In this document: in pieces, positions 739-39,767 of the stretch | How the letters are laid out: the number at the start of each line of letters is the position of its first letter | How positions within the stretch are numbered: position 1 is the first letter of the stretch | Assembly: GCF_037076345.1 (NCBI RefSeq) | Contig: NZ_AP024702.1 | Span: 4,836,001 to 4,900,000, forward strand | DNA length: 64,000 nucleotides | Direction: 5' to 3' | Origin: Haloferula helveola | GTDB taxonomy: Bacteria > Verrucomicrobiota > Verrucomicrobiia > Verrucomicrobiales > Akkermansiaceae | Position numbers and translations under genes: made by a program | Notes under the pieces: model-generated | What the model saw: only the letters and a program-made list of their open reading frames with translations | Told to the model about the DNA's origin: nothing | Database searches by the model: none

Positions 739-2382
739 ATGTCTGAAGAATCCGTATCCGAGTCTCCTGAGAAGGCCGCCGCCCCCGTTGAAGAACCGCC
801 GAAGGGCGGATCCAAGGCCGGCGCCGTTTTCTTTACCATTGTCGGCCTTGCCACCATTGCCGGGCTGATCGCGATGCCGTTGATCGCCGGTGAACCGGCG
901 GAGGGCGCCCTTTCCCAGTGGCAGAGGTTCCTCGGGCGGTTCCATCCGCTCGTCCTGCACCTGCCGATCGGCATGCTGGTGCTGGTCCTCGCTCTCGAGT
1001 TCGGGAAGCTGTTCCGTAAGGACAAGGGAGCCTCGACCATCGTGCCGGCGTTCTTCACCGCCGCTTCCTCGGTGGTGGCCGTGATCTTCGGTTTCCTTCT
1101 TTGGCAGAGCAACCCGGGCGACTACCCGGAGGAACTCGTCAATGACCACCTGTGGTGGGGCACCGGCTTCGCCGCGATGATGGTGGCCGCCTTCGTGATC
1201 AAGGGCTGGGTGGATGTCGCCGGCGGTGCCGGTAACTGGCTTTACTTCGTGACGCTGCTGGGCAGCGGAGTGGTGATGGGTGTGGCCAGCCACGACGGTG
1301 GCTCGATCACCCATGGCAAGTCTTACCTGACCGACGAGGCCCCGAACGAGGTCCGCGAGCTCTACAACAAAGTGGTTCCGGAAGAGGAGCAGTTGGAGAT
1401 GCTGCCGGAAGAGGGTGGTGAGGGTGCCGGCGGTGGAGCGGTCGATCCGGGCATCCCGGTCGAGGAGCAGATCGTCTACACGCACCTCGTCCAGCCGATC
1501 TTCGATCAGAAGTGCGTGTCCTGTCACGGCGCCGAGAAGCAGAAGGGCAAGTTCCGCATGGACACCTACGAGCTGCTCGTGAAGGGCGGCAAGGAAGGTG
1601 AGGGGATCGAGCCGGGCAATGCCGAGGACAGCAGTATCATGTTCCGCGTCCACCTGCCGGAGGACGATGACGAGCACATGCCGCCGGAAGGCAAGAAGCA
1701 GCTCGAGGCTCACGAGATCGAGATCATCGAGTGGTGGATCGACTCCGGCGCTTCGCCCGACGTGAAGGTGGTCGATGCCGAGATGCCGGAGCCGATCAAG
1801 CTGGCCACCGAGAAGCTGGTTCCGCCGGAAGTTCTTGCCGCCCAGGCGAAGGCCGCCGAGGCCGCTGCCGCTGCTGAGGCCGCCGAACGCGCGAAGCTCG
1901 CGGAGGTCGTCGAGAAGGTCCGTGAGGAATTCCCTTCGGCACTGAACTTCGAGTCGCAGGAATCCAGCGACCTGACCTTCACCGCGGTCAGCATGCGCAA
2001 GAACTTCACCGACGAGCACCTCGCCAAACTGCAGCCGGTCGTCGGCTCGCTGGTGTCGCTCGACCTTTCGGGAACCACCGTCACCGACGAAGGCCTGAGG
2101 TCGCTCGCCGGTGCCGAGAAGCTGCGGATGCTCCGGCTTTCCGAGACCGGTGTGACCGATGCGGGCCTCGATGCGGTCGCCGGTATGGTCGAGCTCGAGT
2201 CATTGAATCTCTACGGCACGGCGGTCACCAAGGACGGCGTGATGAAGATTTCCGAGTTGCCGAAGCTCCGGAAGCTCTACCTCTGGCAGACCCAAGTGGA
2301 CGCAGCCGGTGCGGACGAGATCCGCAAGAAGATGCCCGAGTGCGAGATCGTGCTCGGAATCGAGATCGGCGGCGGCGAGTAA
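739..2382 (+). CDS. DUF2231 membrane / planctomycete-type cytochrome c / leucine-rich repeat fusion protein
   Basis: A 547-residue membrane protein with three parts. Residues 28-50 are a first membrane helix. Residues 65-200 hold a DUF2231-like set of helices containing the FHPLVLHLPIGML motif. Residues ~245-340 form a c-type haem domain with C259-V-S-C262-H263, of the sort found in planctomycete surface cytochromes, with a late HMPPEGK stretch that may supply the distal Met. An Ala/Glu-rich coiled linker (350-395) follows, then leucine-rich repeats to the end (LxxLxLSGTxVTDxGL pattern). Such proteins occur in Planctomycetota and Verrucomicrobiota beside catabolic or respiratory genes; the electron partner is unknown. 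A hairpin terminator follows. Confidence 0.8.
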   Translation: MSEESVSESPEKAAAPVEEPPKGGSKAGAVFFTIVGLATIAGLIAMPLIAGEPAEGALSQWQRFLGRFHPLVLHLPIGMLVLVLALEFGKLFRKDKGASTIVPAFFTAASSVVAVIFGFLLWQSNPGDYPEELVNDHLWWGTGFAAMMVAAFVIKGWVDVAGGAGNWLYFVTLLGSGVVMGVASHDGGSITHGKSYLTDEAPNEVRELYNKVVPEEEQLEMLPEEGGEGAGGGAVDPGIPVEEQIVYTHLVQPIFDQKCVSCHGAEKQKGKFRMDTYELLVKGGKEGEGIEPGNAEDSSIMFRVHLPEDDDEHMPPEGKKQLEAHEIEIIEWWIDSGASPDVKVVDAEMPEPIKLATEKLVPPEVLAAQAKAAEAAAAAEAAERAKLAEVVEKVREEFPSALNFESQESSDLTFTAVSMRKNFTDEHLAKLQPVVGSLVSLDLSGTTVTDEGLRSLAGAEKLRMLRLSETGVTDAGLDAVAGMVELESLNLYGTAVTKDGVMKISELPKLRKLYLWQTQVDAAGADEIRKKMPECEIVLGIEIGGGE

Positions 2383-2401
2383 GCTTCCGGGATTCCTTTC
2401 A

Positions 2402-2434
2402 CGGCGACCCCCTGACCGGGGTCGCCGTTTTCGT
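2402..2434 (+). terminator. Rho-independent terminator after the cytochrome gene
   Basis: A perfect 10-bp stem (2402-2411 with 2418-2427) and a 6-base loop are followed by TTTTCGTT. It lies 20 bases after the stop at 2382. It separates this gene from prfC and supports the prfC start at 2491 rather than an upstream one. Confidence 0.8.
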
Positions 2435-2490
2435 TGTCGGTGAGATCGCCCTTGATGGCGCGGCGGGCTGCGCCTACGCCATCGGGCCGC

Positions 2491-4119
2491 ATGTCGAGTG
2501 TCTCCAGTGCCGAACTCAAACGGGAAGTGTCCCGCCGCCGGTCGTTTGCGATCATTTCCCACCCGGACGCCGGCAAGACCACGCTGACCGAGAAGTTCCT
2601 GCTCTACGGGGGCGCCCTGAATCTGGCGGGCAGCGTGACGGCCCGGAAGAACCAGAGGGCCACGACCTCGGACTGGATGGAGCTTGAGAAACAGCGGGGG
2701 ATCTCGGTGAGCTCGACCGTGCTGCAGTTCGACTACAAGGACTGCGTCGTCAACATCCTCGACACCCCGGGGCACAAGGATTTCTCCGAAGACACCTATC
2801 GCGTGCTCACGGCCGTCGATGCCGCCGTGATGGTTGTGGATGCCGGTAAGGGCATTGAGAGCCAGACCCGCAAGCTGTTCGAAGTCTGCCGCCGTCGCGG
2901 TGTGCCGATCTTCACCTTCATGAACAAGCTCGACCGTCCGGCACGGCCGCCGCTCGAGTTGCTGGATGATCTGGAAAGCGTGCTTGGAATCGACGCCTTC
3001 CCACTCAACTGGCCGCTCGGCGACGGGCCGCGTTTCAAGGGAGTCTATGACCGGGAAAAGGGACAGGTGCACCTTTTCGAAAGGACGCCGGGCGGTGCCT
3101 TCCGGGCGCCTGTCGCGGTCAGCGATATCAGCGAACCGGCGGTCAGAGAGAAGCTCGACCCGGATGTCTACGACCAGGTGTGCGAGGAACTCGAACTGCT
3201 TGAGGGCGCCGGTGCGGACTTCGATCTTGGTGCGGTATCGGCCGGCGAATTGACGCCGGTGTTCTTCGGAAGTGCGGCGAACAACTTCGGCGTCCAGATG
3301 TTGCTCGACCGATTCATCGAGTTGGCGCCGCCACCGGCCCCGCGCCGGAGCGGTGAGGCTTCGGTTGAGCCGACTTCACCCGACTTCTCCGCTTTCGTGT
3401 TCAAGATCCAGGCGAACATGAACCCGAAGCATCGCGACCGGGTGAGCTTCATCCGGATTGTCAGCGGCAAGTTCGAGCGCGACATGAACGTGATCCACAC
3501 GCGCACCGGCGAAAAGGTTCGCCTGTCGAACTCGATGCGTTTGTTCGCGCAGGATCGCGAGACGGTCGATGACGCCTACGCCGGTGATGTGGCGGGATTG
3601 GTTGGCAATCACGACTTCCTGATCGGCGACACGCTGTCTTCCTCGAAGGAACTCGTCTTCGATGAGATCCCGCGCTTCCCGCCGGAGTGCTTCGCCTATC
3701 TGCACAACGCCAGCACGGCGAAGTTCAAGCGCTTCCGGGCCGGCCTTGCGCAGATGCTCAAGGAAGGGGTGGTCACCGAGTTCCGGCCGCTGGATACCAC
3801 CGGCGCCTACGTGCCGCTGCTGGGTGCCGTCGGGCCTCTCCAGTTCGAGGTGCTGCAGCACCGGTTGCAGGGCGAGTACGATGCCGAGACGCGCTTGGAG
3901 CATGCATCGTGGGGGTTTGCCCGATGGATGCGAAAGAAGGAGGGGGAGACCCGCCCCGAGGATCTTCCCGAGTTGTCGATGGACGTGAAGCTGGTGCGCG
4001 ACATCCACGGTCACCTCGTTGCGTTGATCCCGAGCGAGTGGACGCTCGGGACCTTTACCGAGAAGAACCCGGACTGGATTGTCAGCGACGTGCCGTTCCC
4101 GCCGCCGGTCGAGGATTAG
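2491..4119 (+). CDS. prfC: Peptide chain release factor 3 (RF3)
   Basis: A 542-residue translation GTPase that recycles RF1/RF2 from the ribosome after termination. The G1 P-loop SHPDAGKT is at residues 23-30, followed by the RF3-type switch region with GSVTARKNQ and an SDWM motif, then DTPGHKDF (G3) and NKLDRP (G4). Domain II and the RF3 C-terminal domain follow (FAYLHNASTAKFKRF, VGPLQFEVLQHRL). Length is close to the usual ~530 residues. The ATG at 2491 places the P-loop at the expected distance; upstream in-frame codons run back into the terminator. A repeat-rich spacer follows. Confidence 0.95.
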   Translation: MSSVSSAELKREVSRRRSFAIISHPDAGKTTLTEKFLLYGGALNLAGSVTARKNQRATTSDWMELEKQRGISVSSTVLQFDYKDCVVNILDTPGHKDFSEDTYRVLTAVDAAVMVVDAGKGIESQTRKLFEVCRRRGVPIFTFMNKLDRPARPPLELLDDLESVLGIDAFPLNWPLGDGPRFKGVYDREKGQVHLFERTPGGAFRAPVAVSDISEPAVREKLDPDVYDQVCEELELLEGAGADFDLGAVSAGELTPVFFGSAANNFGVQMLLDRFIELAPPPAPRRSGEASVEPTSPDFSAFVFKIQANMNPKHRDRVSFIRIVSGKFERDMNVIHTRTGEKVRLSNSMRLFAQDRETVDDAYAGDVAGLVGNHDFLIGDTLSSSKELVFDEIPRFPPECFAYLHNASTAKFKRFRAGLAQMLKEGVVTEFRPLDTTGAYVPLLGAVGPLQFEVLQHRLQGEYDAETRLEHASWGFARWMRKKEGETRPEDLPELSMDVKLVRDIHGHLVALIPSEWTLGTFTEKNPDWIVSDVPFPPPVED

Positions 4120-31124: not shown

Positions 31125-31191
31125 GATGCCCGATCCCTAACGCATCTTCGGAATCCGGCCAGCCGAAAGCGGAGGCGAAGGCGCCGACGAA

Positions 31192-31218
31192 GGGTAGGGA
31201 CGACCGCCCCGGTCGTCC
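31192..31218. repeat. Palindromic element copy 1 (intergenic)
   Basis: GGTAGGGACGACCGCC followed by CCGGTCGTCC: GGACGACC pairs with GGTCGTCC around a short GC loop. A near-identical copy lies inside hsdM at 31512-31538, and a relative at 32475-32501. This copy lies in the gap before hsdM. Confidence 0.85.
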
Positions 31219-31323
31219 AACGCGCCGGGCTGGGGGCAATAATCTCGCAACGGACAGGATCAACATCCAATCCCGCCCTTCCTTGCCCTGACTCCACCAT
31301 CTGCTAGAACCGCTTCAACCCCC

Positions 31324-32934
31324 ATGCACTGGACCGAACCCGCCTCCGCCGACGACTCCCACTCCGAGCTGGAAAAGACGCTTTGGGACGCCGCCAACCA
31401 GCTCTGGGCCAATGCCGCCCTCAAGCCCTCCGAGTTTTCTCCGATCGTCCTCGGCCTGATCTTCCTCCGCTACGCCGACGTCCGCTTCCAGGCCGCCGCC
31501 GAGGATTTGAAAGGTAGGGACGACCGCCCCGGTCGTCCGTCTCGCCGCAAGATCGGCCCGGCCGACTACCACGCGAAGGGCGTGCTCTACCTGCCTGAGG
31601 AGGCCCGCTTCGGCCACCTGCTCCAGCTCCCCGAGGGCGGCAACATCGGCCAGACGGTCAATGACGCCATGCGCGCCGTCGAGAAGGAGAACCCGGACCT
31701 CGCCGACGTCCTGCCGAAGACCTACCAGATCCTCGAGAACCGCACCCTCGCCGAGCTGCTCAAGGTCATGGCCTCCATCCCCATGGACAAGGGCGGCGAC
31801 ACCTTCGGCCTCATCTACGAATACTTCCTCGGCAAGTTCGCCATGTCCGAGGGGCAGAAGGGCGGGGAATTCTACACGCCCACCTCCATCGTCCGCCTCA
31901 TCGTCGAGATCCTCGAGCCCTACCACGGGCGCATCTACGATCCCGCCTGCGGCTCCGGCGGCATGTTCGTCCAGTCCGCCCGCTTCGTGGAGAACCACCA
32001 CCGCAACCCCACCGCCGAGATCTCCGTCCATGGCCAGGAGCGGGTCACCGAAACCAGCCGCCTCGCCCGGCTCAACCTCGCCGTCCACGGCCTCAGCGGC
32101 GACATCCGCCAGGGAAACACCTACTACGAGGACCTCCACGACTCCGTCGGCCGCTTCGACTTCGTCCTCGCCAATCCGCCCTTCAACGTCAGCAAGATCG
32201 ACAAGGAGCGCCTCGCCGACGACCCGCGCTACGCCTTCGGCCTGCCGCGCACCGACAATGGCAACTACCTCTGGATCCAGCACTTCCACTCCGCGCTCAA
32301 TGCCACCGGGCGGGCCGGCTTCGTGATGGCGAACTCCGCCGCCGACGCCCGCGCCTCCGAGCAGGAGATCCGGGAAAAACTCATCCGAAGCGGCCACGTG
32401 GACGTCATGGTCAGCATCGGGTCGAACTTCTTCTACACCGTCACGCTGCCCTGCACCCTGTGGTTCCTCGACAAAGGTAGGGACGGATCTCCGAGCCGTC
32501 CGAAACATCTGCGCGACACCGTCCTGTTCCTCGATGCCCGCCACGTCTTCCGCCAGCTCGACCGCGCCCACCGCGACTTCACCCCGGCGCAGAACGAGTT
32601 CCTCGCCAATGTCGTCCGCTTCTACCGCGGCGAGGACCTCGAGTTCGAGCACGGCTCCGAGGCGAAATGGGAGGAGGTCTTCGGCGACGCCACCGGCTAC
32701 GTCGATGTCCCAGGCCTATGCAAGGCGGCCACCCGTGCGGAAATCGAGGCCCAGGGCTGGTCGCTCAATCCCGGCCGCTACGTCGGCGTCGCCAAGGGCG
32801 AGGAACTCAGCGACGAGGATTTCAAGGAACGGCTCGAAGCCCTCAACGAGGAACTCGAAGTGCTCAACGCCGAGGCGCGGGAGTTGGAGGAACGGATCGA
32901 GGCAAACGTGGCGGAGATTCTGGAGACGGCATGA
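31324..32934 (+). CDS. hsdM: Type I restriction-modification methyltransferase subunit
   Basis: A 536-residue N6-adenine methyltransferase, the modification subunit of a type I system. An N-terminal helical domain ([38 protein letters not shown]) leads to the catalytic domain with the SAM motif [10 protein letters not shown] (206-215) and the catalytic NPPF (284-287). The family signatures [20 protein letters not shown] and [16 protein letters not shown] are present. Two palindromic repeats are inserted in frame at residues ~63-72 and ~384-393, both in loops variable in the family, so activity may survive. It overlaps the next gene by four bases. Confidence 0.95.
31512..31538. repeat. Palindromic element copy 2, inside hsdM
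   Basis: Nearly the same 26-base palindrome as the intergenic copy, read in frame as [10 protein letters not shown] within HsdM. It sits between the N-terminal helical domain and the [13 protein letters not shown] segment. Confidence 0.85.
32475..32501. repeat. Palindromic element copy 3 (variant), inside hsdM
   Basis: GGTAGGGACGG ... CCGTCC, sharing the GGTAGGGACG start with copies 1 and 2 but with a different inner stem. In frame it adds [10 protein letters not shown] between WFLD and the [10 protein letters not shown] strand of HsdM. Confidence 0.8.
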
Positions 32935-33418
32935 AATACCTACCGAAAATCCAGCAAGAAACCCGGTGGTCGTGTGGCTTGGCGTGCATCGAGTCGATCC
33001 TGCTGTCGATAGGTGTCGATTTTCCTCAACGGGACATGCTCTCGAAATTCGCGACCGAGTTTCCTGATTGGAGTGCTCATCCAGGAAAAATCGCTCCTGC
33101 TGACTTTCCTTCATTCTTCGAGGCGGCGGGGGTGCCGGTCAATATGCTTCTGCCAGAAGACATCCCTGGCACCGTCGCTGTTCTTCCCGGTTCTATTGGG
33201 GCTATCGTAGGAAGGGAGAAGTGGTGGAAGGACGAGAAAAGGATTGAGCTCGTCGACAACTGGCATGCTCTTCGACTGCGCGAAGTCAGGGATACAAAGC
33301 TCATCGTGATGAGTCCTGGTTTCGAGCCCCAGGAATCAACCGTGGAAGTGATTCCGATGGACGAGGTCAAAATGATCCAATCAAGGGTCTATGTATTTCA
33401 CCGAAAAATGGAGGATGC

Positions 33419-33422
<4 letters not shown>
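32931..33422 (+). CDS. C39 peptidase-like protein encoded between hsdM and hsdS
   Basis: A 163-residue protein. [22 protein letters not shown] (7-28) matches the start of C39/papain-like domains (Gln8 or Gln9, then Cys15 in SCG), and His112 in VDNWHALRL fits the catalytic His of VDNxHxxxV motifs. The usual following D-P is S-P (128-129), so the third residue is uncertain. No signal peptide, so it acts in the cytoplasm. It overlaps hsdM and hsdS by four bases on each side. It is not a standard type I subunit. Codons are less GC-rich than hsdM. It could be an active protease, a processing enzyme or a peptide-binding protein. Confidence 0.65.
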
Positions 33423-34669
<1,247 letters not shown>

Positions 34670-34673
34670 AGCC

Positions 34674-35127
34674 ATGCCTGACCCTGACGACTTTACGCCC
34701 TTTCGTGGAACCGAGTTCATTGCCGCAATCGACAAATTCGAAGAATTGATGAGTCAAAGCGGCAGAGCATTTCTTTTGGGCGCCCAGCGAGGTCGAAGCT
34801 ACGGTTCTGTCGCAGTGCAATAGCTGGATCGTGCTTCGAATTACTAACGAGTCGGACCGAAATCACGTCCGGTCTGTACTCCCGGATTCAATGGCAGGGC
34901 TTACCAAGATGCTTTCGGGTCTGCGGAGGCGGGAGGCGATCTTCGTCGGTCTCGCTGCGATGCTTCCCTCCAGGATTCTTGTTCGTGAACTGACCGATTC
35001 ACAGTTGCCGCGGTCTCACGACATTGGCTTCGATGCGGGATGGAAGAATGCCCGTCTTGACGATGAATCTCTTCGAGCGATTGGTGAACGTTGGCGCTAT
35101 CAGCGGCGGCACGTTGGCGGGGCTTGA
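34674..35127 (+). pseudogene. Fused remnant of a SIR2-like gene and a HerA-like ATPase gene
   Basis: The first frame (34674-34823, 49 codons) reads FRGTEFIAAIDKFEELMSQSGRAFLLGA, resembling the first strand and GAG loop of SIR2-like NADase domains, then leaves that family. From ~34783 a second frame reads APSEVEATVLSQCNSWIVLRITNESDRNHVRSVLPDSMAGLTKML, the end region of HerA/DUF87-type ATPases, running to the stop at 35127. The change of frame falls at a short GGCGCC-like sequence. The simplest reading is a deletion that joined the start of a SIR2-like gene to the end of a herA gene. It starts four bases after hsdS, so it was in the same operon. Non-functional. Confidence 0.6.
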
Positions 35128-35172: not shown

Positions 35173-36024
35173 ATGGACGAAGTAAAGAAATTCTACAAAT
35201 ACAGGTCGTTGCGAAACGCCGACGGCAGTGTGAATGAGTTCACTGCAGCGATTCTCCAGAAGACTGAGATTTGGTTCGCCGCACCAAAGGACTTCAACGA
35301 TCCATTCGACTGTAATCTACGGCTGCATGTGAATGACTCCACAGATGAGGAATGGGTGTCATACTTGAGTCGAATGGAGGAAGCTTATCCGGAGTTTAAG
35401 GAGCCTCTTCAGGTTGCGAAGAGCAAGAGGCTCTGGCGGCAGGGGGATCAGTTCTGCAATATCGGCCTCAAGACTTGGGATGAGACCTACAACCGATCCA
35501 GCGTTTTTTGCCTTTCGAAGAAGCCCAACTCGATCCCGATGTTCTCCTACTACGCCGACAATCACAAAGGCGTAGCGATCGAGTTCGAGTTTTCCGATAT
35601 GGGCGTTCCGTGCGGAATTCCGTACCAGGAGGCCCTTCTTCGTGACCCAAGAACGTCAACTGGCGTGGTGTTTAAGGATGTGAAGTACTCGCGTGGCTTT
35701 CCCGAACTGAACTATCTCCGACTTTACGACAAGACGGAGAGCCATGAACTGGTCAACAGTATCATTTTTACGAAGCACCATGAGTGGGCGCACGAAGACG
35801 AATATCGAATCTTTCGGAAGGGGGTGCCGCCGTCGATTGTGAGTATTAATAAAAGCCTGGTGACGAGGGTGATTTTTGGGTGCCGCTCGACGGAGCCGGA
35901 TGTTGATCTGGTAAAGGGATGGTTAGTCGGGTGGCCTACGGATGTTGTGCTAGCGAGGGCGACGGAGTGCAGGGATCGCTTTGAGTTGGAGGTTGTGGAC
36001 TTTGACTGTGTAAAAGCTAATTAG
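35173..36024 (+). CDS. DUF2971 family protein
   Basis: A 283-residue protein. VKKFYKYRSLRNADGSVNEFTAAILQKTEIWFAAPKDFNDPFDCNL is the DUF2971 N-terminal signature, and SSVFCLSKKPNSIPMFSYYADNHKGVAIEFEF plus HHEWAHEDEYRIFRK are the other conserved blocks. The family is found widely in defence islands and on mobile elements; its activity is not established. ATG 35173 is used; a TTG at 35164, nearer to an AAGGAA sequence, is an alternative. GC content is clearly lower than in the flanking chromosome, which suggests transfer. Confidence 0.8.
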   Translation: MDEVKKFYKYRSLRNADGSVNEFTAAILQKTEIWFAAPKDFNDPFDCNLRLHVNDSTDEEWVSYLSRMEEAYPEFKEPLQVAKSKRLWRQGDQFCNIGLKTWDETYNRSSVFCLSKKPNSIPMFSYYADNHKGVAIEFEFSDMGVPCGIPYQEALLRDPRTSTGVVFKDVKYSRGFPELNYLRLYDKTESHELVNSIIFTKHHEWAHEDEYRIFRKGVPPSIVSINKSLVTRVIFGCRSTEPDVDLVKGWLVGWPTDVVLARATECRDRFELEVVDFDCVKAN

Positions 36025-36048: not shown

Positions 36049-36384
36049 ATGATCTCCTACACCGAAGACCACCTGATCGAGCAGCCGGCGATCCAGCTCA
36101 TGGAGCATGAGCTGGGCTGGGACTCGGTGAACGCCTATGACGATCCTCCTTCGCCAAGGCTACGGCGGACAGGGTGGTCAGCCTGCTCTGGGAGGGAAGC
36201 GGTGGAGGAGCTGACGCGGGATCGCGCGGCACTGAGCCTGGTGGAGGCGAATCGGGAGATCGACAAGCTGATGCGCGGCGGGGTGAAGGTGAAGATCCCG
36301 GACACCAAGCACGGAGGGCAGCGGACGGAGGTTGGTCACGTAAAGAGCAAAGCTCCACGTGATGGGCGGGTGGTGGATTGGGAG
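36049..36384 (+). pseudogene. 5' fragment of hsdR (duplicate)
   Basis: ISYTEDHLIEQPAIQLMEHELGWDSVNAYD repeats almost exactly the start of the second hsdR at 38568. About 40 codons are then missing and replaced by a palindromic repeat (36144-36174); homology resumes at VEELTRDRAALSLVEANREIDKLMRGGVKVKIPD. A second interruption with a CACGT/ACGTG pair lies near 36338-36360, and homology ends near the VVDW codons at 36384. About 112 codons remain of a gene that is normally ~1000 codons long. Confidence 0.8.
36144..36174. repeat. Palindromic element inside the hsdR fragment
   Basis: TCCTTCGCCAAGGCTACGGCGGA: the arms TCCTTCGCC and GGCGGA-type pair imperfectly around AAGGCTAC. It sits exactly at the internal deletion point of the fragment and keeps the hsdR frame. 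Confidence 0.6.
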
Positions 36385-36462
36385 ATCCAGCCGGTGGAAT
36401 CCGGGATTTTTCCGGGATCTCGCAGAAATCGCGCAAAATCTGGGAGATCGGTGGGGCTCGGG

Positions 36463-36608
36463 TTTCACCGAGCGGTGAAAAGGGCGATTCGAGTGAAAAT
36501 GCTGAATTGCTTCATGAATATAGTGTTTTCACGAAAACGTGAAAATAGCAAATCCGTGAAACTTGGGTTGCGTTTCACGGAAAGCTGGGTTTTCATGTCT
36601 ACGTGAAA
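36463..36608. promoter_or_regulatory. Array of TTTCAC/GTGAAA palindromes, probable AbiEi operator
   Basis: Three perfect inverted repeats lie before the AbiEi-like gene: TTTCACCG-AG-CGGTGAAA (36463-36480), TTTTCACG-AAAA-CGTGAAAA (36526-36545) and CCGTGAAAC-n9-GTTTCACGG (36554-36580). Extra GTGAAA half-sites occur at 36493 and 36603. The centres are 64 and 31.5 bases apart, close to six and three helical turns. AbiEi antitoxins are known to repress their own operon by binding inverted repeats, so this is inferred to be the autoregulatory operator. Confidence 0.7.
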
Positions 36609-37733
36609 GGCTCCGAGTTCGTGAATGAGAAGCCCGAGTTGCTTGAGCGGAAGCTGGAGCAGCAGCTCCTTTCGATTCTTGAGGAAATCCCCGGATTGGG
36701 GGGCGAGGTCAAGGTTTGGCGGAACCCTGCAGCCTCGGACAAAGCATTCGACATCATGGGGGAACTGCGACTTCCACGAAGCGGGGACAAGATCGAGCTG
36801 TGGGTGGAGTGCAAGAATCTGCCGCGCCCGTCGCAGTTCCCGTTCGTGAGTCTTCGGAACAGGTTTCTGGAAGACGGTTCCAGGGAAACCAGGGTTCCGG
36901 TTCTGGCAGCCCCCTACATTTCGCCACGGATGGCGGAATTGTGCGAAGAGCACGGCTGGAGCTGGTATGACCTCGCCGGTAACTGCCGCTTGGTGGTTCC
37001 GGGGGCAGTTTACATCGAAAGGACCGGAAACAAGCCCGTACACACGCGACCGAAGCCGAAAGCGAATCTTGGCACGGCGGCTTCCGCGAGGGTCTTGCTC
37101 GCTCTTCTTGCCCCACAGAATGCAGGGGCGAAGTGGACTCAAACCTCGCTGCAGAAATACTGTGAGCCGGGCGTGAGCATCGGATTGGTCAACAAGGTGG
37201 TCACCCACCTGCGCGAGGAGGCGTGGCTGGAAACACTCGATGATGGAACATTTCGGGTGAAGGATGCTGTCGGCCTCATGGAAACCTGGGGGAATGCCTA
37301 CCGGTTTGATCGGCATCAGAAGTTGGGCTATTTCACGTTGCTGAAACCGCAGGAACTGCACAGGAGGCTGATAAGCTTGAACGATGCGCAAGGAGAGGTC
37401 GACTATGCGGCATTCAGTGCGGCGGACTTCCAGGCTCCGTGTGTCCGTCAGAACAAGACATGGCTTTATGTGAGCGATGCGGCGTTGGATGAGTTCATCG
37501 AGGTGACCGAGGCGAAGCGGGTGGCAAGCGGGGAGAACCTGGTGGTCCTGATTCCTGATGATGCCGGTGTTTTTTACATGGGGAACCACAGTGACGGACG
37601 GCTTGGTTGCACCAATCCCGTAATCACTTGGTTGGATCTGCTCCACGTGGGCGGCAGGGGAGCCGAGGCGGCGGAAGCGATCATGAATCAATGCTTGAAA
37701 CCGGTGTGGGAAGGAGAGGGAAACCATGTCTGA
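36603..37733 (+). CDS. AbiEi-like antitoxin/regulator with nuclease-like N-terminus
   Basis: A 376-residue protein. Residues 45-75 (FDIMGELRLPRSGDKIELWVECKN) have the spacing of a PD-(D/E)xK core: Asp50, Glu69-x-Lys71. YISPRMAELCEEHGWSWYDLAGNCRL (105-130) is typical of AbiEi-family proteins, and 160-215 looks like a winged helix (RVLLALLAPQNAGAKWTQTSLQKYC ... VNKVVTHLREEAWLE). It would repress the operon through the palindromes upstream and oppose the toxin. GTG 36603 overlaps a half-site; GTG 36621 is an alternative start. It overlaps the toxin gene by eight bases. Confidence 0.75.
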   Translation: MKGSEFVNEKPELLERKLEQQLLSILEEIPGLGGEVKVWRNPAASDKAFDIMGELRLPRSGDKIELWVECKNLPRPSQFPFVSLRNRFLEDGSRETRVPVLAAPYISPRMAELCEEHGWSWYDLAGNCRLVVPGAVYIERTGNKPVHTRPKPKANLGTAASARVLLALLAPQNAGAKWTQTSLQKYCEPGVSIGLVNKVVTHLREEAWLETLDDGTFRVKDAVGLMETWGNAYRFDRHQKLGYFTLLKPQELHRRLISLNDAQGEVDYAAFSAADFQAPCVRQNKTWLYVSDAALDEFIEVTEAKRVASGENLVVLIPDDAGVFYMGNHSDGRLGCTNPVITWLDLLHVGGRGAEAAEAIMNQCLKPVWEGEGNHV

Positions 37734-38571
37734 CGAGCCACGATTCGCGGACGACTACGAGCCCCGGCAGGTGACGGCGGCGAGACGGGTGATCGTCGAT
37801 GTGATGCAGGTGCTCGCGTCCTTCGAGGATTGCCTCGTATTGGTGGGCGGATGGGTGCCGGATCTGGTGATTGCTGATACCGATGAGCCACACATTGGCA
37901 GCATCGATGTCGATCTGGCGCTTGATGCGGGCAAGCTGGATGAGGGGCGGTATGCCGAGATGCTGAAGTTGTTGCTCGGAACTAAACGATATTGGCAGGG
38001 TGAGAAGGAGTTCCAGTTCGTCACGGAGGTGGATCTGGGTGATGGCGAGAAGCCGGTGGTGGTCGAGGTCGAATTTCTTGCGCCGAAGGAGGTCAAGACG
38101 CGGAAGAACAAACCGAAGTTGCTGGAGGGATTCCGGGTGCTGAAGGCGGACGGTTGCGCGGCGGCCTTCCACAGTCCGCTTTCCCAGAAGCTGAAGGGTG
38201 AGATGGTGAGCGGAGCCACGAACACGGTGTCGCTGCAGGTGGCATCGGTTCCGGATTTCCTCGTGATGAAGGCCTTTGCGTTGATTGGGCGGGACAAGCC
38301 GAAGGACGCCTACGACATTTGTTACTGTCTCGACCACTACGCGGGCGGGATTTCCGAGTTGGCGGAAGCGTGGCGCTCACGGAAGGATGACGCGGATGTT
38401 TCCAAGGCGATCGAATACCTCGGGGTGAAATTCGAATCGGTGGAATCGTATGGCCCGATGCAGGTGGTGGAGTTCCACAACGAAACCGATCCCGAGACTC
38501 GCCAGGAACAAGCCCGCCGGGCGTATGAATTGGTCCGGCAGTTTCTGGCTGCGATCGAAGAGAAACCATGA
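37726..38571 (+). CDS. AbiEii-like nucleotidyltransferase toxin
   Basis: A 281-residue nucleotidyltransferase. LVLVGGWVPDLVI (37-49) and HIGSIDVDLAL (56-66) give the G-G and D-x-D motifs of the fold, with Asp61 and Asp63 as metal ligands. KAFALIGRDKPKDAYDICYCL is the conserved C-terminal block of the AbiEii/AbiGii family. In type IV systems these enzymes modify tRNA or another target and stop growth, giving phage resistance. A strong AAGGAG site precedes the ATG. It overlaps hsdR by four bases (ATGA), so the toxin and restriction subunit were translated together. Confidence 0.8.
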   Translation: MSDEPRFADDYEPRQVTAARRVIVDVMQVLASFEDCLVLVGGWVPDLVIADTDEPHIGSIDVDLALDAGKLDEGRYAEMLKLLLGTKRYWQGEKEFQFVTEVDLGDGEKPVVVEVEFLAPKEVKTRKNKPKLLEGFRVLKADGCAAAFHSPLSQKLKGEMVSGATNTVSLQVASVPDFLVMKAFALIGRDKPKDAYDICYCLDHYAGGISELAEAWRSRKDDADVSKAIEYLGVKFESVESYGPMQVVEFHNETDPETRQEQARRAYELVRQFLAAIEEKP

Positions 38572-39767
38572 GCGGCTACACCGAAGACCACCTGATCGAG
38601 CAGCCCGCGATCCAACTCATGGAGCATGAGCTGGGCTGGGACTCGGTGAATGCTTACGACGAGTGGTCTTCGGGTGCGAGCAGCCTCGGCCGCGAGGCGA
38701 AGCGAGAGGTGGTGCTGACGGGACGGCTGAAGCCGGCGCTCGAATCCTTGAACCCGGAGCTTCCCGCCGAAGCGTTGGACGCGGCGGTGGAGGAGCTGAC
38801 GCGGGATCGTTCGGCGCTTAGCCTGGTGGAGGCGAACCGGGAGATCGACAAGCTGCTACGAGGCGGGGTGAAGGTGAAGATCCCGGACCGTGAGCGCGGC
38901 GGGCAGCGCACGGAGGTGGTGCGGGTGGTCGATTGGGACGACCCCGGAAAAAACGATTTGCTGCTGGTCTCGCAGTTCTGGATCGCGGGCGAACTCTACA
39001 CGCGGCGGACGGACCTGATCGGTTTCGTGAACGGGCTGCCGCTGGTGTTGATCGAGCTGAAGAAGCCGGGGGTGAACGTGCGCGAAGCCTTCGACAAGAA
39101 CCTGGCGGACTACAAGGAGGCGATCCCGCAGCTATTCCACTACAATGGCTTCCTGCTCGTCTCGAACGGGGTGCAGAGCAAGATCGGCAGCCTGACCGCG
39201 GCGTGGGAGCATTTCGCCGATTGGAAGAAGGTGGCGGCGGAGGACGAGACGCCGGACATTTCGCTGAACACGCTGCTGCGCGGGACCTGCGAGAAGGGGC
39301 GGCTGCTGGACCTGCTGGAGAACTTTTGCAGGTTCGTGGATGCGAAGGGGGCGACGGGGAAGTTGGTGGCGAGGAATCACCAGTATCTCGGGGTGAATCG
39401 GGCGATTGAGTCGCTGAGGAGGTGCTGCGGGATGAAGAGGGAGGCAAGCCCTACGGGCACCCTCACCCCGACCCTCTCCCAAGGGGAGAGGGAGGTGGAT
39501 GGCCGGCATTATCGGGGTGGGCTGGAGTTTGCGGGGATGGTGGAGAGGGCGAGGGAGTTGCGGGAGAACCAGACACCAGCGGAGGAGATGCTGTGGGAAC
39601 TGCTGCGAGACCGGAAGCTCGGGGGCGCGAAGTTTCGGAGACAGCATCAGTTCGGGGACTACATCTGCGACTTCTACTGCCATGATGCAGCGCTCGTCGT
39701 GGAGTGCGATGGCGAGGTTCACGACACGCCCGAGGCCAAGGCCCACGACAAGAAGCGTGATGCCTAG
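38568..39767 (+). pseudogene. hsdR: hsdR truncated and fused to a partial DUF559 domain
   Basis: The 399-codon frame starts as a normal type I restriction subunit: residues 1-285 hold the N-terminal nuclease domain with Asp149 and Glu163-x-Lys165 (LVLIELKKPG). After VNRAIESLR, where the motor should begin with a GxGKS motif, the frame enters a spacer with a palindrome (39472-39492) and then a DUF559-type segment (RARELRENQTPAEEMLWELLRDRKLGGAKFRRQHQFGDYICDFYCHDAALVVECDGEVHD). That domain also stops early, at KKRDA. The helicase and C-terminal domains are absent, so restriction by this protein is not expected. Confidence 0.85.
39472..39492. repeat. Palindrome at the hsdR/DUF559 junction
   Basis: CCCTCTCCC-AAG-GGGAGAGGG, a 9-bp perfect palindrome with a three-base loop, read in frame as part of TPTLSQGERE. 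Sequences of this kind often lie beside DUF559 genes in diverse bacteria. Confidence 0.75.

Follow-up and report, generated by a model that had tools for sequence, protein, structure and literature searches.

The window analysed here, a stretch of 64,000 nucleotides from Haloferula helveola, carries a type I operon whose features all lie on the forward strand. The hsdM gene (31324-32934) is intact and encodes 536 aa (PADLOC MTase_I PDLC03035, E = 1.8e-215); the HsdM proteins of relatives measure 535-536 aa and share 83-85% identity with it. A 39-base repeat with a GGGACGACCGCCCCGGTCGTCC core was observed upstream of hsdM (31189-31227) and again inside the gene (31509-31547), the two copies being 90% identical. 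Between hsdM and hsdS lies a small gene of 163 aa (32931-33422), which gave a weak Pfam match below the cut-off and has a 53% identical copy at the same place in the related operon L123. The hsdS gene (33419-34669) is full length, with 416 aa (Pfam Methylase_S; PADLOC Specificity_I, E = 3e-82, residues 15-413). It is followed by the segment at 34674-35127 that is the subject of this analysis and, adjoining that segment, by a full-length DUF2971 gene (35173-36024; Pfam PF11185, E = 1.1e-7; PADLOC PDC-S31, E = 6.4e-49), PDC-S31 being a PADLOC candidate defence gene. Further downstream are a broken duplicate of the hsdR 5' end (36049-36423), with a DNA identity of 89-92% to the sequence from 38568 onward, an AbiEi-like antitoxin gene (36603-37733; Pfam PF09952, E = 2.7e-10; 81% copy in L129), and an AbiEii-like toxin gene (37726-38571; Pfam PF08843, E = 3.3e-7; 73% copy in L129).

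The resident hsdR (38568-39767; Pfam HSDR_N and DUF559) is truncated: about 283 N-terminal codons of about 1045 are kept, followed by an in-frame DUF559 element and a stop at 39765-39767. Neither the remainder of hsdR nor any other HsdR match was found elsewhere in the 5.68-Mb genome. The DUF559 element alone does not close the hsdR frame, since in L129, a locus of the same family, a complete HsdR of 1200 aa includes this element. Of the hsd genes, only hsdM and hsdS look intact, and with hsdR truncated too, the operon has decayed further than the initial annotation saw. The element itself (39452-39767) recurs at residues ~303-445 of the L129 HsdR and ~405-545 of the L118 HsdM; it is flanked by repeats of the LTPTLSQGERE / GRGAGGEG type and sits in-frame inside hsdR or hsdM, the long frames staying open. 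Only a single copy was found in the genome of the window, and the element looks like a translated mobile element.

The segment behind hsdS consists of two remnants in different reading frames. The hsdS gene ends at 34669 and the next ATG stands at 34674, where a frame of 49 codons begins; it reads MPDPDDFTPFRGTEFIAAIDKFEELMSQSGRAFLLGA, continues with 12 unrelated, out-of-register codons, and stops at 34821-34823. Its first 37 codons (34674-34784) form a sir2 5' remnant, and when these residues were compared by tblastn with the fetched loci, they matched the start of an intact sir2 that immediately precedes herA in about 40 of them, with the best identities in L014 (62%, E = 9e-11) and L012 (59%, E = 3e-10). 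Most of these matches stop at residue 37, within the GAGCS NAD-binding motif, which is cut at its GA; the intact relatives continue with GCSKCA, the remainder of the motif, and read LLGAGCSKCA here. The second frame is open from 34753 to a stop at 35125-35127 (124 codons) and from 34783 reads PSEVEATVLSQCNSWIVLRITN. The part from 34783 to 35127 corresponds to the last ~115 codons of herA and lacks a homologous start codon. Against the PADLOC HerA model PDLC04105, residues 11-119 of the frame aligned with profile positions 469-574 of 576 (E = 4.8e-34), and nine further HerA models matched as well, all matches beginning at residue 11, which is the junction. The herA tail is 78% identical to L011, the best match, and 77% to L012. 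A Pfam scan of both segments gave no match, which is not counter-evidence because the SIR2 part is only 37 residues long and the HerA part is only a C-terminal tail. The initial annotation had read a SIR2-like N-terminus in the 49-codon frame and the C-terminal part of a HerA-like ATPase in the other, and both identifications hold; the profile search that it proposed succeeded for the HerA segment through PADLOC, and with Pfam it remained blank for both.

The two remnants meet at 34782-34785, where, judged from the sir2 and herA DNA of relatives, the CC at 34783-34784 can be assigned to either side. The sir2 start followed by the herA end has the order and strand of the SIR2-HerA system (Nezha, GAO_19), and such a join is far beyond what chance would give, since two independently found matches come together at a single base. 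Neither the complete SIR2 NAD-binding motif with the catalytic residues nor the HerA nucleotide-binding core is present, as 37 residues cut inside GAGCS are left of the one and profile positions from 469 of 576 onward of the other. It could be argued that a short gene still functions at 34674-35127, or that the end of herA persists as a small protein by itself, since the tail frame is conserved and stays open over 124 codons. This is highly improbable: the halves lie in different frames, the tail lacks a homologous start, the nucleotide-binding parts are gone, and no intact short gene across the region was found in the 75 relative loci or in searches of Verrucomicrobiota. Most likely, the scar is functionless, because what remains is a frame of 49 codons plus a herA tail that lacks a start.

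Relatives were collected by scanning 84,980 species genomes, one genome per species, with the HerA tail, which yielded 75 distinct relatives. Most of those with sufficient flanking sequence still have sir2-herA as an intact pair, with ends that correspond to the two parts of the scar, which confirms the expectation that relatives may retain the full module. The intact copies match the PADLOC SIR2 (E = 1e-63) and HerA (E = 1e-131) models and the solved SIR2-HerA complexes, with 8wld, 8woc, 8wod, and 8wof common to both searches. They include L014, which is Opitutaceae EW11 and belongs to the same class as the window, and L012, another Verrucomicrobia bin. The 387 genomes of the window's own order yielded no intact member of this subfamily; G003 and G687 of this order have a HerA of another kind, with 44-47% identity, and intact copies of the subfamily were found only in other classes or phyla and in Opitutaceae. 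The exact ancestral sequence and the deletion ends are thus not readable from the relatives found.

Other states of the pair were also seen. In L013, another Verrucomicrobia genome, most of sir2 is gone from the 5' side and herA is intact (2130-4087 of that locus), which is a second, independent decay of a sir2-herA pair. In L036 (5434-6583) and L054 (5482-6630), sir2 lies in two frames ahead of an intact herA, possibly through frameshifts or stops. In Opitutaceae EW11, a TIR-domain gene (L014, 8362-8838) stands after herA and ahead of an hsdR fragment.

The size of the loss can be estimated from the distance between the sir2 start and the PSEV codon, which is 2579 bases in L012 and L074, 2522 in L014, and 109 in the window, so that about 2.4-2.5 kb of DNA was lost. 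The sir2 and herA homologies meet without a foreign base or gap, with a possible overlap of at most 2-3 bp. The two remnants fit both ends of the intact pair exactly and nothing is left over, and we infer from this fit that one deletion of about 2.4-2.5 kb explains the scar, as had been proposed. The deletion would have removed sir2 from codon 38 onward and herA up to ~110 codons before its end, taking with it the SIR2 NAD-binding and catalytic parts and the HerA nucleotide-binding core; what stayed would have been a peptide frame of 49 codons and the tail of herA, lacking its own start. The suggestion of the initial annotation that microhomology was involved found no support. Near the ends, the relatives read GGNGCNGGN in sir2 and CGNCCNAGC in herA (with Arg also AGR), and the bases that could be shared are CC, extended to GCC in case G was the last base of the missing Arg codon; at most 2-3 bases are thus common to both ends, which is near chance. 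Such a scar could also have arisen through at least two deletions in succession, or through insertion and later loss, and the operon does have other breaks, namely the hsdR 5' duplicate and the DUF559 insertion. We nevertheless consider a history of several events unlikely, as the join holds no foreign DNA and a base-to-base meeting is most simply reached by one event. Overall, we assign a probability of about 0.93 to the reading that 34674-35127 is the relic of a SIR2-HerA pair that was embedded directly behind hsdS and lost by one deletion.

Conservation of the herA tail bears on the age of the loss. Of the 35 columns of the herA stretch that are invariant in 53 intact relatives, the remnant differs at none, and it differs at 1 of the 51 nearly invariant HerA columns of the same relatives. 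On the assumption that the herA-tail codons have evolved neutrally since the pair was lost, they have diverged by less than about 4%. Because all 35 invariant positions are kept, the loss of sir2-herA appears recent, unless the tail is still selected or the join is artefactual; a tail still under selection would fit this preservation too. An artefact would mean that an intact sir2-herA on the chromosome was collapsed by the assembler, and a herA tail without decay at conserved sites is what would then be expected. This explanation is very doubtful, however, for the genome is a single contig of 5.68 Mb in which neither a second SIR2 of this kind nor a second HerA was found, the ends in relatives contain no long repeat over which an assembler might jump 2.4 kb, and the operon also has a truncated hsdR. 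The genome's only other SIR2_2 match (L142, C1:1888549-1889127) lies in a 383-aa frame and is a different protein, not of the embedded kind.

The initial annotation had placed SIR2-HerA between hsdS and hsdR, and relatives bear this out. Using HMMs built from the loci, hsdS was found directly ahead of sir2 in L012, L017, L018, L020, L024, L027, L028, L033, L035, L037, L039, L044, L046, L047, L050, and L077, and hsdR directly after herA in L015, L016, L023, and L077, the last of these showing both arrangements. In the HerA tree, linkage to hsd genes was found in 20 of 53 relatives in the window's HerA clade, a lower bound since the HMMs perform best on hsd genes resembling those of the window, versus 0 of 28 outside it (Fisher p = 7e-5, a value that ignores the relatedness of the loci). 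The well-supported branches of this tree require that the linkage was gained or lost 11 times or more. Among operons with an intact embedded pair, L016 has the closest HsdR (57%), and such operons are more distant from the window than the set with the closest HsdR.

That closest set came from a search of 240 related genomes in which the HsdR N-terminus of the window served as query, after which the operons were read. Wherever both genes were visible (L118-L123, L125, and L128-L135), cargo was present between hsdS and hsdR. It mostly consists of known or candidate defence genes, named from HMM matches, that differ between genomes: a caspase with PDC-S26 (L118), a UG5 reverse transcriptase (L119), AbiE-like pairs (L120, L128, L130, and L131), an OLD/Gaj-like ATPase (L121), a PtuA-like ATPase with HNH (L122), PDC-M65B (L125), AIPR (L128), GmrSD (L130 and L132), and a PHP-domain protein (L133). 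The cargo of L123, L134, and L135 has no clear defence assignment, and SIR2-HerA was not found in any of the closest-HsdR operons. Broken hsdR 5' copies stand beside the cargo in L118, L121, and L129 as well; these copies span about 80-124 codons, and their DNA is mostly 83-92% identical to that of the resident hsdR. Site-specific integration is not indicated, as the copies have different ends at different loci. In the window and in these three operons, the broken copy separates blocks of cargo; the scar of SIR2-HerA belongs to the upstream block, which is presumably the older. A tentative reading is that the hsdS-hsdR interval may be a turnover site where modules are stacked, each arrival leaves an hsdR 5' copy, and older modules decay.

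SIR2-HerA is an anti-phage system reported from E. coli and Vibrio cholerae (PMC11559045) and from Streptococcus thermophilus (PMC11514479). The studied homologues deplete NAD+ and defend against phages (PMC11559045), and by analogy the lost pair, when intact, would have been an NADase-ATPase complex depleting NAD+ on infection. The scar shares with this system the homology of its ends to both genes, and its intact relatives match the PADLOC models and solved complexes; it differs in that almost all of both genes is gone and in that its subfamily is often linked to hsd genes. In S. thermophilus, SIR2-HerA is reported to adjoin restriction-modification genes (PMC11514479).

The embedding of defence genes between hsdS and hsdR is already published. 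In EPEC, DarTG2 lies between them, and its authors regarded the site as a potential recombination hotspot for defence systems (PMC12255303). The position within the type I operon is the same, whereas that module is a different one, intact and active, and the module in the window is dead and its hsdR truncated. The EcoprrI operon, of type IC, has PrrC embedded in it (PMC3874165), and Campylobacter hsd loci contain inserted rlo genes (PMC2610378); in these cases, too, a toxic back-up effector is embedded in an hsd operon. PrrC, however, is an anticodon nuclease held latent by the restriction enzyme, and no report of a comparable coupling of SIR2-HerA to the restriction enzyme was found in the literature. 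In Geobacillus kaustophilus, an hsdR relic stands beside rloC (PMC2610378), so that a type I locus has likewise decayed beside its associated effector; there the effector survives, whereas in the window the effector pair and hsdR are both broken. What is new here is the dead SIR2-HerA case and its recent date, along with the loss of hsdR in parallel, the link of SIR2-HerA to hsd genes at the level of a clade, and the hsdR 5' copies.

For the organism, the operon would have lost at least two effectors, the sir2-herA pair and, by truncation, HsdR. The HsdM-HsdS methyltransferase and the passenger modules DUF2971 and AbiE are probably still working, and methylation is probably retained too. The locus may offer a recent snapshot of defence turnover, in which an NAD-depleting pair and a restriction subunit are broken and the methyltransferase genes are intact. 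One SIR2-HerA clade repeatedly gains linkage to hsd genes, the hsdS-hsdR interval is a practical place to seek new systems, and how cargo is gained can be tested through the hsdR 5' copies.
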